From: Willaertia magna
Lineage: Eukaryota; Heterolobosea; Eutetramitea; Acrasida; Naegleriidae
NCBI GenBank assembly: GCA_902984215.1
Contig: CADWAF010001920.1
Location: 1 to 64,000, forward strand
DNA length: 64,000 nucleotides
Direction of reading: 5' to 3'
In this document: positions 7,706 to 19,239 of the stretch, in pieces
Position numbering within the stretch: the stretch's first letter is position 1
Layout of the letters: each line of letters opens with the position of its first letter
Translations under genes and position numbers: made by a program
The notes under the pieces: generated by a model
Databases searched by the model: none
What the model was told of the DNA's origin: nothing
Seen by the model: only the letters and a program-made list of their open reading frames with translations

Positions 7706-8539
7706 TTTTTAAACTAAAATTTTTTATGCTCTTCACAAAAAATTGTAGTTAAAACAATAATTAACTTTCATAATTAAATTAAGCACATCTAAAATAGTGT
7801 TTTAAAAAAAAAAGAAATTTTTGAAAAAAAGTTATTTTAAAGTTATTTTAAGACGTTTTATTAATATCTTTTTTGTTTTATTTTTGCATAAATAATTGGA
7901 AAACTGAAAATGATTTTAAGTACAATCATTATAAAACTGTTAAGCTCAAGACTTTAGAGTTTTTAAAATAATAAAAATTGTTGTTTATAAAGTGGTTTTT
8001 GTTAATATAGTAAATAATAGATTTAAATTTTTTAAAATAATAAATTTATTTACATCTATAAATTTAATTTTATAAAATATAAATTATATTATTTTTATAT
8101 TATTCAATAACCAAAAACAATTATTTTTTATATTAAATAATTATAAAATCTCTATATTTTAATTGTAGTGAAATATTTAGTATTTTATAATATTTATTAA
8201 TAAAATAAACTAAAATAAAAATTAAATTGAAAATTTATAAATTTTATAAAAACATTTTATTACTAAAACAATTCATAAACAATTTATTCACACCACTCTA
8301 TTAATAGATTTTAAAAATTTTAATATTATTAAATAAGATGAAAAATATAAAATTTTAAATTTTTATTTATACAAAAAAAAAAGATATAAAATAATTTATA
8401 TATTTGATTATATTTTTGAAAAATATTTAAATTTAATTTATTTTAACCATTTAAATACAGAAAATAAATTTTTTTTAATATTTTTAAACATTTAAAATAT
8501 TTAAAAATATTTTTTTATTCTTTATCAATAGACTATTTC

Positions 8540-9022
8540 ATTAATGATTTAAATAGATTAATAAATTTAAAAACTTTAAAAATAATGCATATTAATATTA
8601 AATATAATAATAATAAAAATTATAAAAAATTAATTAAATTATATAAAAGTTAAAATAAATTTTTATATAAAGATTTTACTTTATTATATTATTTAAAAAT
8701 ATATAAAACAAATTATAAATTTAATAATTGTATTAATTTAAAAATAATTTATATCTATCGCGTTTATTTTAATAAAAATATAATCATTAACATAAAAGAT
8801 TACAAAAATATTAATAAATTAGTTATTGTTAATTATGAAAATATTTATAAAAATAATGATTATTGTTATAATTTAAAATTAAGAAGCTTTAAATTAAAGT
8901 TTAAAATTTTTTATTTTGAAAAATATTTGAAAAATATAGAATATTTAAAGTATAAATTTATACAATTTTTTAAAAATTTATTAAATTTATTTTTTAGTTT
9001 GTTTTTTATTTTTAATTTTTAA
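8540..9022 (+). pseudogene. LRR-like relic in the AT-rich desert
   Basis: One frame is open for 122 codons (8654-9022) in DNA so AT-rich that TAA should occur often, and the same frame upstream of a single TAA (8651) also reads as LRR (DLNRLINLKTLKIMHINI). Downstream elements are NNCINLKIIYIYR, NINKLVIVNYENI, YNLKLRSFKLKF and YLKNIEYLKYKF, all with the N-L-K-x-L/I pattern of the LRR gene at 2845. No in-frame ATG starts it. It appears to be an old copy of the local LRR family that has drifted to A/T-only codons. Confidence 0.5.
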
Positions 9023-9130
9023 ATTTTATTTTATTTAAATTATAAAAAATTAATAAAATCTTATTTTATACTATTTAAAAAATGATGGTAAAATAAAAAT
9101 GAAAAAATAGAAAAAATAAAAATTTTAAAA

Positions 9131-9182
9131 AACAGTATAAATTTGTATTGTTTTTTGAATTAAAAAGTATATATTTATACTT
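9131..9182. repeat. Second, degenerate copy of the palindrome block
   Basis: AAAAAACAGTATAAATTTG... is followed 34 bp later by AAAAAGTATATATTTATAC. The order and flanks mirror the first two palindromes at 7601-7660, so the block seems to have been duplicated about 1.5 kb away and then mutated. Confidence 0.55.
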
Positions 9183-10151
9183 TTATAAACTAAATTTATT
9201 TACTTTATAAATTATTTATCTGTTATAATTTATTAATTAATATTGATATTTCTTTAATAACTAATAACAAACTTAATTTTAAAACTATAAAACTAAGAAA
9301 AAATAAAAGTGTTAATAATATATTAAATAAAAAAACAATTATTTTAGTACAAATATTATTATATTATATTTTAAAACTTCATTTTGTTGTTATTATAAAA
9401 TATAATTATTTTAATGTACTTTTTTTTATAAAAAAAGTGACAAAGATTGTTGTAAATTAATAAAAAATATTTTTATTTTATAATCTAATAACTTATCACA
9501 AGATTTTAATAATTTTATTAAAGTAATAGATTATTTAATAAATAATAAAACTGATTTAAATTTTTTTTTATATAATATAAATAAATATTTATTTTCTTTT
9601 AATTATATTCTTCTTTTTATTGTATTTCAAAGATTATTAATTATTTTGATATAAAAAATTTTAAAAAAGTATTACTTTATTAATTAAATTACCAAAAAAC
9701 CATTAAAAAGCAAATGTAAAGGTATTTTGGGTAGTGATATTTTTATTTTTATAAATTTTAATATTTTTTATATATTTTAATAAAAATAAAAATTTAAAGT
9801 TAAAAAAAATATAAATTAATTTATTATTAAATTTTTTTTTATATTAAAATTATATAAAATATATTTAATTTTATTTAATAATAATTTATTTTTATTTTAA
9901 TTTTTAATAATTATTAATATAAAAAATTATAAAATTTTAGTTATAATTTTAGTTATAATTTTATTATTTATTTTATTTGTAATAATATAAATTATATTTT
10001 AATATAATAAAAAATTATACCGTAAAGTATGTATTTTTATAAATAAATTATTTATCATTTTAATTTTTATATTTATATTTATTAAAATATCATTTTTATT
10101 ATTTTTTAAATTTAAAAAAAAGCTATAAAAATGATTATTTTATTAACTATA

Positions 10152-10250
10152 TATAGAATGTATTGAATGTTGTGATGGATTTGAAAATGTTATATTATAT
10201 TTTAATTATATTAATAGTAATGTCTTACAATATGAAAATGAAATATTGTA
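10152..10250 (+). pseudogene. Eroded 3' end of an importin-alpha copy
   Basis: About 100 bp closely match the 3' end of the intact gene at 11622-11721. Both encode an ECIECCDGFE segment and then N/S-rich residues with LQY.NEIL. The relic stops at a TAA, and even the GATTGGTAGT motif after the intact gene's stop has a counterpart at about 10270. Nothing upstream of 10152 is recognisable as importin. This is the remains of a tandem duplicate. Confidence 0.8.
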
Positions 10251-17384: not shown

Positions 17385-18074
17385 TTATTTTCTCTTTAAA
17401 TTTAGTTTTTTAGTGGCTGTAGTTGTTGTTTTCTTACTTGTTGGTTTTACAATAATTTCATCTTGTTCTTCATCTAATTGTTCTTCTTCATCGTCATCAA
17501 TTATTCTAAATTTACTTTTCTTTTTAGAAGAAATATTGTTATTAGAAGAAGAAGAACCAACAGAAGATGACAAATCTTTCTTATTAAATGTCTTTTCATT
17601 AAAATCTAATTTTCTTACAACATTGTCATCATCATCATCTTCAAAAGAAACAACATCATCATCTACAATAAAATCATTCATTTCATCTACTTCTTGAATT
17701 TCATCTTGTTCTTCCATCCAAATCTCTTCATTTTCTTCTTTATTGTCATCATTAGTTTCCAAAATCTTTCCCTTTTCCAATAATTGTTTTAATTTCTCTT
17801 GTACTGCTTTAGATCTATGTGCACACAATATTATATCTTTTGGTTGAATTATTTGTTTCTTTTTATTATAATCTTGTTCGGAACGATGAGCTGCAAATTG
17901 AATTAAATCTTTATTATGAATAGTTGTTAAATATTGAAACATAAATTGACAAATAAATTGAATTGTTTTTTTATCAAATAGAACTTGATTTTCTTTTGAT
18001 TTTTCTTCAATTTTCTTAATCATGTAATGATAGAGAGATAATTTTAATTTCTCTTGTTGTTGTTCATTAATCAT
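17385..18074 (-). CDS. CENPS: CENP-S/MHF1-like histone-fold protein
   Basis: 229 residues. The first ~110 form the CENP-S histone fold: LKLSLYHYMIKKIEEK, FICQFMFQYLTTI, DLIQFAAHRSEQD and IQPKDIILCAHRSKAVQEKLKQLL, matching the MHF1 helices and the conserved R/HRS tail. CENP-S pairs with CENP-X at kinetochores and with FANCM at stalled replication forks. Residues 115-229 are an acidic then Lys/Thr-rich tail, longer than in animal MHF1 (about 140 residues). I place the start at MINEQQQEKL, which has the A-run leader; the open frame continues upstream only because it enters the inserted SINE-like element. That insertion lies 4 bp beyond the start codon on the upstream side, so the gene's leader has been rewritten by it. 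Confidence 0.8.
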   Translation of the reverse strand: MINEQQQEKLKLSLYHYMIKKIEEKSKENQVLFDKKTIQFICQFMFQYLTTIHNKDLIQFAAHRSEQDYNKKKQIIQPKDIILCAHRSKAVQEKLKQLLEKGKILETNDDNKEENEEIWMEEQDEIQEVDEMNDFIVDDDVVSFEDDDDDNVVRKLDFNEKTFNKKDLSSSVGSSSSNNNISSKKKSKFRIIDDDEEEQLDEEQDEIIVKPTSKKTTTTATKKLNLKRK

Positions 18075-18077
18075 TTT

Positions 18078-18414
18078 TTTTTTAAAATTAAAAGTCACGC
18101 CTCGTAGCGCAGTGGGCTCTAAGCCGTACACCTTGCTCATCGTGACCTCTGAGCAACGGTGGTTCGATTCTCGTCTGGGGTCGAATTTCACACACCTTCA
18201 CAACACACAGTTACCCTACACCACATGCATAGCCCAATCTGATGAGGTTATGCTACACGTAAGTCGCAGATGTATTCACCAGGTGTCTTAATATCTTCGT
18301 ATGGAAGAAAAAGAAGTTACGGCACGCCTTGTAGGCACAGACCTATAAGATTAGCTTGTAATAATTAGCAGTTGCTTCGCAACCGTTAGTCAATAAAGAT
18401 TTTTTAAAATTAAA
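18078..18414 (+). mobile_element. tRNA-derived SINE-like retroposon
   Basis: Positions 18093-18399 form a block with far higher GC than its surroundings, bounded by a perfect 15-bp direct repeat TTTTTTAAAATTAAA (18078-18092 and 18400-18414), the size expected for a target-site duplication. The 5' part has a perfect Pol III A box, TAGCGCAGTGGG (18105-18116), and a near-perfect B box, GGTTCGATTCT (18161-18171), at tRNA-like spacing, but does not fold into a good cloverleaf, as in SINE heads. An unrelated ~210-bp body follows, including the hairpin GTTGCTTCGCAAC near 18371, and the six T of the repeat would terminate Pol III. A degenerate tRNA gene plus chance repeat is the alternative. It inserted at the start codon side of the CENP-S-like gene. 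Confidence 0.72.
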
Positions 18415-18452
18415 TAGTTTACAAATAGTTTACAAACAAATAATAAATTTTA

Positions 18453-19133
18453 TTAATTCTTTAACAATTCAAATTTCTTTACAAAATTTTTAAAATCATT
18501 AATTTCCAATTTAATTTTACCACTCTCTAAATTATTATTTACATTTTCTTTACCAATTAAAGTTAACATATCTTGTACTTGATCATCAAGTATATTTTCA
18601 CCTAAAATATGTCTAAAATAATGACATAATTCAGCTTTACCAATTGTACCTGAACTATTTACATCTAACATTTGAAATATTTCATTTAAATAAATTTCAT
18701 TTAAATTTTCATTTGATTTAATAAAATATTTATTTAAAAATTTTAAAAAGGATTTAAAATCCATTGGAATACTTTCAATATTCTTTTTTTGTTGTTGTTG
18801 TTGATTTTTATTATTTTCTTTAATTACAACAGTGGTAGTAGATGATTGTGGTTGGGTAGAAGTAGAGGAAAGTAAAATTAATAAATGTGGTGAATAAATT
18901 TGGATAAAATCGTAAATTTCTTGAATAGTAATTTCTAAACCTAAATTTATTCTAAGTAATGTACTACAATCTTTTAATGAAATTGTCAATTCTTCATTAA
19001 TTTGATTATTATTTACTTCCGAAGAAGTATTTTGTTGTTGTTGATTAGAATACATTTGAAATAATTGAAAGAGTTCTTGAATTTGTTCAGAACTAAATTG
19101 GAGAGGAGATTTATAATCTAATGATGCTTTCAT
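18453..19133 (-). CDS. EF-hand protein
   Basis: About 226 residues. One canonical calcium-binding loop is clear, DVNSSGTIGKAE, with D, N, S and E at coordinating positions, inside a helix-loop-helix (NEIFQMLDVNSSGTIGKAEL). A degenerate second hand follows (GKENVNNNLESGKIKLEIND). The N-terminal half has helices like those of calmodulin-family proteins (SSEQIQELFQLFQMY; FKSFLKFLNKYF) but broken loops and Gln/Thr low-complexity inserts. It is likely a calcium sensor of unknown target. I start at MKASLDYKS because its ATG follows a run of A; an in-frame Met 23 codons earlier is less likely. Confidence 0.75.
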   Translation of the reverse strand: MKASLDYKSPLQFSSEQIQELFQLFQMYSNQQQQNTSSEVNNNQINEELTISLKDCSTLLRINLGLEITIQEIYDFIQIYSPHLLILLSSTSTQPQSSTTTVVIKENNKNQQQQQKKNIESIPMDFKSFLKFLNKYFIKSNENLNEIYLNEIFQMLDVNSSGTIGKAELCHYFRHILGENILDDQVQDMLTLIGKENVNNNLESGKIKLEINDFKNFVKKFELLKN

Positions 19134-19239
19134 TTTTTTTTTAAAATTGTTATTTGAGTAGTAATATGTAAATTTAATTGTCAAACAACCATTATTATCC
19201 ACTAGATAATTTTGTAAAATATAACTTTAAGGTTACAAT

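Follow-up and report, generated by a model that had tools for sequence, protein, structure and literature searches.

The short spacer between two Willaertia genes raises the question of what a GC-rich block carrying tRNA-like promoter boxes is, and how it came to lie 18 nt from a start codon. The block occupies positions 18093–18399 on the plus strand (307 nt) of the window, by which we mean the whole 64-kb stretch of DNA that was analyzed. Its G+C content is 46.6%, compared with 26.9% for the window as a whole, and the GC-rich block of ~307 bp given in a preliminary description of this DNA was recovered with its coordinates unchanged. We consider it highly probable that the block is a SINE, a short nonautonomous retroposon that carries a type 2 Pol III promoter internally, and that it was copied by the reverse transcriptase (RT) of a LINE and inserted, with a 15-bp target-site duplication, into a spacer of ~56 bp between an EF-hand gene and a CENP-S-like gene. 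The support, as read from the sequence, comprises the promoter boxes, ends shared among copies, a 5'-truncated copy, the duplication, and the presence of LINEs with long open reading frames (ORFs) in the same genome. The letters themselves and comparisons among copies define the window copy as full length.

The element appears to be built of several distinct parts. The A box of the type 2 Pol III promoter (TAGCGCAGTGG, 18105–18115, plus strand) lies 12 nt from the 5' end of the element and is identical in the copy on contig C71, and the B box (GGTTCGATTC), identified by motif, follows at 18161–18170 on the same strand. Both boxes had been proposed before, and in a scan of both strands they formed the single A/B-box pair (25–60 nt apart) in the 64-kb window. 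The sequence GGTTCGANTC likewise has one occurrence in the window on either strand, inside the element. We note that the Pol III promoter is predicted by motif only. The boxes fall within a tRNA-like head with a short linker (18093–18204, plus strand), of which about 18140–18203 is common to the copies on contigs C363 and C828. The non-tRNA body that follows (18205–18363, plus strand) occurs only in the window copy, the copy on contig C447, and, for its first part, the C71 copy. A 3' hairpin (AUUAGC.A.GUUGC paired with GCAAC.C.GUUAGU; 18364–18390, plus strand) has a z score of −3.14, with 2 of 200 shuffles as stable, and a terminal UCAAUAAAGA (18390–18399, plus strand) begins at the last base of this hairpin. 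The run of six T previously placed at the end of the block is present at 18400–18405 on the plus strand. It may represent the Pol III terminator of the element, the start of the target duplication, or both.

The element is flanked by two perfect copies of a 15-bp repeat, TTTTTTAAAATTAAA, at 18078–18092 (left) and 18400–18414 (right), which we interpret as a target-site duplication. The repeat had been noted earlier, and we found TTTTTTAAAATTAAA nowhere else in the window on either strand. A repeat finder at default settings listed no direct repeat in 17900–18700, so the 15-bp repeat rests on the letters themselves. When positions in the intergenic DNA of the same window were paired at random, 3 of 296,093 pairs gave a flush repeat of at least 15 bp, as did 9 of 209,212 intergenic pairs lying 60–500 nt apart. 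A variant of this control that allowed overlapping pairs gave 0.27%, an excess that we took for self-overlap. Among runs of at least six T in the window, the same next 9 bases were shared by 18 of 58,322 ordered pairs, the pair of the element included. Part of the 15-bp repeat, read on the gene strand, is a leader, AATTTTAAAAAAAAAATG, that recurs before the ATG of the EF-hand gene and on contig C274. This leader was identical before different ATGs (window 18072–18090 and 19131–19148, and locus L098 near 640), and it may serve this genome as a motif for initiation or as a promoter motif. Clear target duplication is confined to the window copy among the copies found: the duplication of the C447 copy is 6 bp at best (ACAAAA), and none was seen by eye for the copies on C71 and contig C47.

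Copies of the element are dispersed in the assembly. We searched 19,240,052 bases (19.24 Mb) in 894 contigs, and the copy counts are lower bounds, as the assembly is possibly incomplete and the searches score only the best candidates. The 337-base query matched five places (the window, C71, C447, C363, and C828), and a search with the head pattern, allowing 3 mismatches at most, recovered the same five. The tail pattern added one further place, on C47. Reversed-pattern controls for the head, A-box, and tail searches gave no match. Within this assembly the element is not single copy, with six places found in all.

Both ends are present in the window copy only, and the other copies retain different parts of it. 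The C71 copy has the same 5' end as the window copy (AGTCACGCC), with the first 83 bases identical, and has lost its 3' part. Its similarity to the window stops after ~197 query bases, and when the C71 region was compared with the window and C447, similarity was confined to the element. The C447 copy is 5'-truncated, starting at query base 60 and stopping at the same CAATAAAGATTTT as the window copy, with which it shares 96% identity over 273 bp and 99% over the 174 bp of body and tail. The 3' end CAATAAAGATTT is common to the window, C447, and C47, the last of these consisting of 27 nt of tail only. C363 and C828 contain only a head fragment (~64 bases) joined to another short body, and the C828 copy likewise ends in a T run. 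Because the flanks of these two copies are alike (82% over 233 bases), we counted them as one, duplicated, event. In total, a shared 5' end was seen at two places and a shared 3' end at three, in different flanks, and the independent places number four, or five with the C47 fragment, which points to a low-copy family. The sequence GACCTCTGAGCAACGGTGGTTCGATTC around the B box was retained in all five head copies found, with one mismatch in C363. At a small number of positions following the B box, C71 agrees with C447 against the window, and the window agrees with C363 and C828; because of this pattern of base sharing, subfamilies seem to exist.

Some matches were set aside. Most matches of the C71-region search fell outside the SINE, in a neighboring stretch of AT-rich, low-complexity sequence. 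This stretch matches many places in the assembly and is similar to window positions 8000–10200, a region of ~2.2 kb in which 200-bp bins range from 1% to 12% G+C, AT repeats are short and degenerate, and ORFs of 150 aa are absent. Matches on C305, C19, C647, C531, C428, C891, and C509 were taken as the 3' part of a LINE beside the C363 head, and of these C647 and C531, plus C363 itself, were inspected. This LINE part directly adjoins the C363 SINE head fragment (locus L004, about 1300–1475).

The preliminary description called the element tRNA-derived and SINE-like. A SINE-like retroposon is supported by our results, but the resemblance to a tRNA extends only to the promoter boxes, as neither ARAGORN nor Rfam found a tRNA and we found no donor. 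ARAGORN, run on the window and on the five loci that carry a head, called no tRNA, and cmscan with permissive filters (E up to 10) gave no tRNA match to the head, which is not scored as a normal tRNA gene by either ARAGORN or the Rfam tRNA model. No Rfam family exceeded its curated score in 17500–19000 or 18085–18215, and we dismissed a known Pol III RNA (7SL, 5S, RNase P) on this basis. We compared the head with a set of 30 tRNA sequences drawn from 64 calls, in which several sequences differ only at their ends and not all isoacceptors are represented. The best alignment, with a tRNA of contig C438, was equaled by 9 of 200 shuffled heads, and the alignment with tRNA-Thr was equaled by 28 of 200, with similarity mainly at the boxes. 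From its tRNA density, we guess that C438 is a mitochondrial contig. Besides two copies of the SINE, the A-box pattern GCCTCGTAGCGCAGTNGGC with 3 mismatches matched 15 places that contain GCCTCTTAGCTCAGTCGGC, and 13 of these 15 loci were called as tRNA-Thr(AGT). A search for TAGCGCAGT..TTCGA matched only two copies of the SINE and a single further place, none of them an intact tRNA. The T-arm pattern matched the five heads and one place with 3 mismatches, and its reversed control also gave 2 matches. The genome-wide tRNA search, which found no donor tRNA, scored 63 of 1757 candidates, so a donor could have escaped detection. IMG/VR viral contigs gave no match to a 21-mer taken from the head. 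Judged by its motifs, the head is best described as a putative tRNA-like promoter head, and a tRNA origin is not supported.

LINEs are present in the same genome. The assembly contained 76 RVT_1 stretches (E up to 0.001). Among ten ORFs from RT loci, C180 alone had endonuclease (E 2e-5, under the Pfam cut-off), RT, and RNase H. Those on C647, C356, C311, and C74 had RT and RNase H without an endonuclease match, with the C356 RT just under the cut-off, and the rest consisted of three with RT alone, one with endonuclease alone, and one with nothing. The LINE ends on C311 and C74 consist of a hairpin, UCAAUAAA, and then (AAACTTT)n, with UCAAUAAAC directly after the hairpin. The SINE ends in a hairpin with UCAAUAAA at its base, followed by UCAAUAAAGA and then T. 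Hairpin z scores were −3.1 for the SINE, −3.5 for C74 (0 of 200 shuffles as stable), and −2.8 for C311 (3 of 200). When the SINE tail was aligned with the LINE tails, shuffled sequences aligned as well in 51 of 2000 cases for C74, 216 of 2000 for C311, and 1547 of 2000 for C647. Searching with the tail pattern at 3 mismatches added only the 27-nt piece on C47 and hit no LINE.

The C311 and C74 LINEs are like the SINE in having a 3' hairpin with UUAGC near its base and then UCAAUAAA, but differ from it in their stem and loop sequences and their (AAACTTT)n tail, and plain alignment between the two is weak. A second LINE kind, seen at the C647, C531, and C363 ends, has AATAAA and (AAACTTT)n after other sequence. 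Across the two LINE kinds, a terminal (AAACTTT)n after AATAAA was observed with different preceding sequence (loci L093, L094, L095, L078, and L004). The SINE 3' end appears to have the layout of the C311/C74 LINE family, one of the two LINE kinds compared, a likeness that the alignments support weakly.

The position of the window copy suggests possible consequences for the adjacent gene. The CENP-S-like gene (17385–18074, minus strand) matched PF15630 (E 1.6e-7, 32 bits vs. a cut-off of 28), in agreement with its earlier naming, and its ATG (18074–18072, minus strand) lies 18 nt from the block, with an A tract directly before it. Upstream on the same strand, domain search and coordinates place the EF-hand gene (18453–19133, minus strand). 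By coordinate arithmetic, the spacer between the two genes minus the element and one repeat copy is 56 bp. Upstream of its ATG, the CENP-S frame stays open over at least 120 nt and passes through the SINE head in antisense. It includes an in-frame ATG at 18140–18138, 66 nt upstream, that would give CENP-S 22 more residues. Since the CENP-S domain starts at residue 8, counted from 18074, the lower ATG suffices. A SINE-derived N-terminal extension of 22 residues through use of the upper ATG is only possible. From the position of the element we infer that it could have a promoter or coding role for CENP-S, and the supply of a promoter or leader, as suggested earlier, is plausible. Elsewhere in the window, the best named relatives of the phosphatidylserine decarboxylase include proteins of Naegleria gruberi, N. 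lovaniensis, and Acrasis kona, at 64%, 63%, and 44% identity, respectively.

Other copies also lie near open reading frames. The C447 copy is 10 nt upstream of the opposite-strand ATG of a 495-aa ORF, in an A tract, and the C47 fragment adjoins an opposite-strand open frame. This tail piece (locus L092 1497–1523; C47:5709–5735) abuts the open start of the ORF, where there is no ATG. The piece may supply a 3' splice site (TTGACTAG), or the gene there may be broken. The C71 copy lies at a distance of 145 nt from an ATG chosen by eye, which may not be a gene start because no ORF of at least 80 aa begins there. C363 and C828 are some 280–350 nt from ORFs that are F-box-like by eye. On the gene strand, the 3' junctions read AAAAAA in the window, ACAAAA in C447, and ACAAA in C47, each followed by TCTTTATTG, and the three junction-proximal A common to all of them may belong to the element. 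A run of at least six A was found within 25 nt before the ATG at 10 of 28 ORF starts in the window, including CENP-S, although these starts are ORF calls and some are surely not true starts. Among random 25-mers, such a run was found in 3.5% across the window and 5.7% in intergenic sequence (2,596 of 45,208). The placement of the window and C447 copies in A tracts, respectively 18 and 10 nt ahead of ATGs on the opposite strand, suggests that a U tail primes on gene leaders, and the two or three insertions would fit a U-tailed RNA that primes on A-tract leaders. A joined-flank search of the assembly matched the window itself and gave neither a second allele nor a paralogue that lacks the element. 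A further match, on C274, is not an empty site but an A-tract leader with 82% identity over 64 bases.

LINE-driven retroposition fits the shared ends in unrelated flanks, the 5' truncation, and the target duplication. Under this mechanism, a Pol III transcript would begin ~12 nt before the A box and finish in UUUU, a LINE RT would recognize the 3' hairpin and UCAAUAAA, and the U tail would prime on an A tract, which at this locus is the A-rich leader immediately before the ATG. The element would then stand divergent to the gene, the end that holds its promoter lying on the side of the start codon, and CENP-S would now have to be transcribed through or from it. A more general scenario is that the SINE lands 10–20 nt upstream of genes through A-tract priming, in divergent orientation, and repeatedly replaces promoters or extends proteins, with its LINE partner acting through the hairpin and UCAAUAAA. 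We regard this scenario as tentative and rather unlikely.

The low copy number would also suit a different origin, in which the block is a functional single-copy or few-copy gene that encodes a noncoding Pol III RNA from a tRNA-like promoter and the other places are its retro-pseudogenes. The 99% identity of body and tail between the window and C447, the stable 3' hairpin, and the T-run terminator would all suit such a noncoding RNA. However, the full-length window copy has a target duplication, so it also looks inserted, and its head is joined to two different bodies, as is seen in SINE families. No Rfam family matched over its curated score, and we judge an RNA gene of this kind to be improbable.

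Few copies and a target duplication would likewise be expected of a nonautonomous DNA element, or of another mobile unit that moves without an RNA intermediate, but none of the four inverted-repeat pairs in 17900–18700 (shortest arm 12) joins the ends of the element. The ragged 5' ends, the constant 3' ends, the Pol III boxes, and the T-run end also argue against such a unit, which we consider highly improbable. We give the least credence of all to a block that is native to the site, whether as a bidirectional promoter or leader of CENP-S or as a decayed tRNA gene, with its repeats arising by chance. Its location 18 nt before the ATG and the recurrence of AATTTTAAAAAAAAAATG-type leaders are consistent with a native leader, but the same block is found beside unrelated genes, and these dispersed copies largely contradict that reading. 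No tRNA was called that would mark a decayed tRNA gene, and chance rarely produces a flush repeat of 15 bp.

A SINE at this locus has implications for what is known of repeats in this group. The preliminary description knew of no SINE family in Naegleria-like organisms, and we found none in the accessible text of the open-licence literature, including PMC2888827, PMC6125883, PMC3266345, and PMC10161547. Repeats tabulated in the paper on the N. lovaniensis genome include DNA, LINE, LTR, and unspecified classes, and the term SINE is absent from its main text. It is likely but not proven that a SINE is undescribed in Heterolobosea, and as far as the accessible text of the surveyed literature goes, the element would be the first described there. 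Together with the LINEs of the same genome, it could provide a testable SINE/LINE pair in Discoba. The insertion may also serve as a natural experiment on the expression of a gene with an upstream spacer of ~56 bp after a promoter-bearing insert arrives 18 nt before its ATG.

Compared with known systems, the element most resembles tRNA-type stringent SINEs with LINE-like tails. According to the accessible text of Ohshima's review (PMC3747384), plant LINEs have a stem whose own bases vary while those flanking it are conserved, a pattern common in stringent LINE/SINE tails. The Willaertia SINE tail appears to show this pattern of variable stem and conserved flanks with one of the two LINE kinds compared. 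As those SINEs are portrayed in the accessible text of PMC3747384 and PMC5135761, the Willaertia element shares with them an A/B-box head, an unrelated body, a 3' hairpin with conserved flanks, 5' truncation, and target duplication. Unlike them, it has no recognizable tRNA fold or donor, was found at six places, occurs in Heterolobosea, and ends in a T run rather than in poly(A) or in the (AAACTTT)n of the LINE. Trypanosomes, for their part, contain short LINE-derived elements. In Diplonema papillatum, ~3600 scattered pieces of the 28S rRNA gene have been likened to TRIMs and SINEs in the accessible text of PMC10161547. The Diplonema pieces and the trypanosome elements are not described as built on a tRNA-like A/B-box head, unlike the Willaertia element, but they share with it the character of short nonautonomous repeats and membership in the same supergroup, Discoba.
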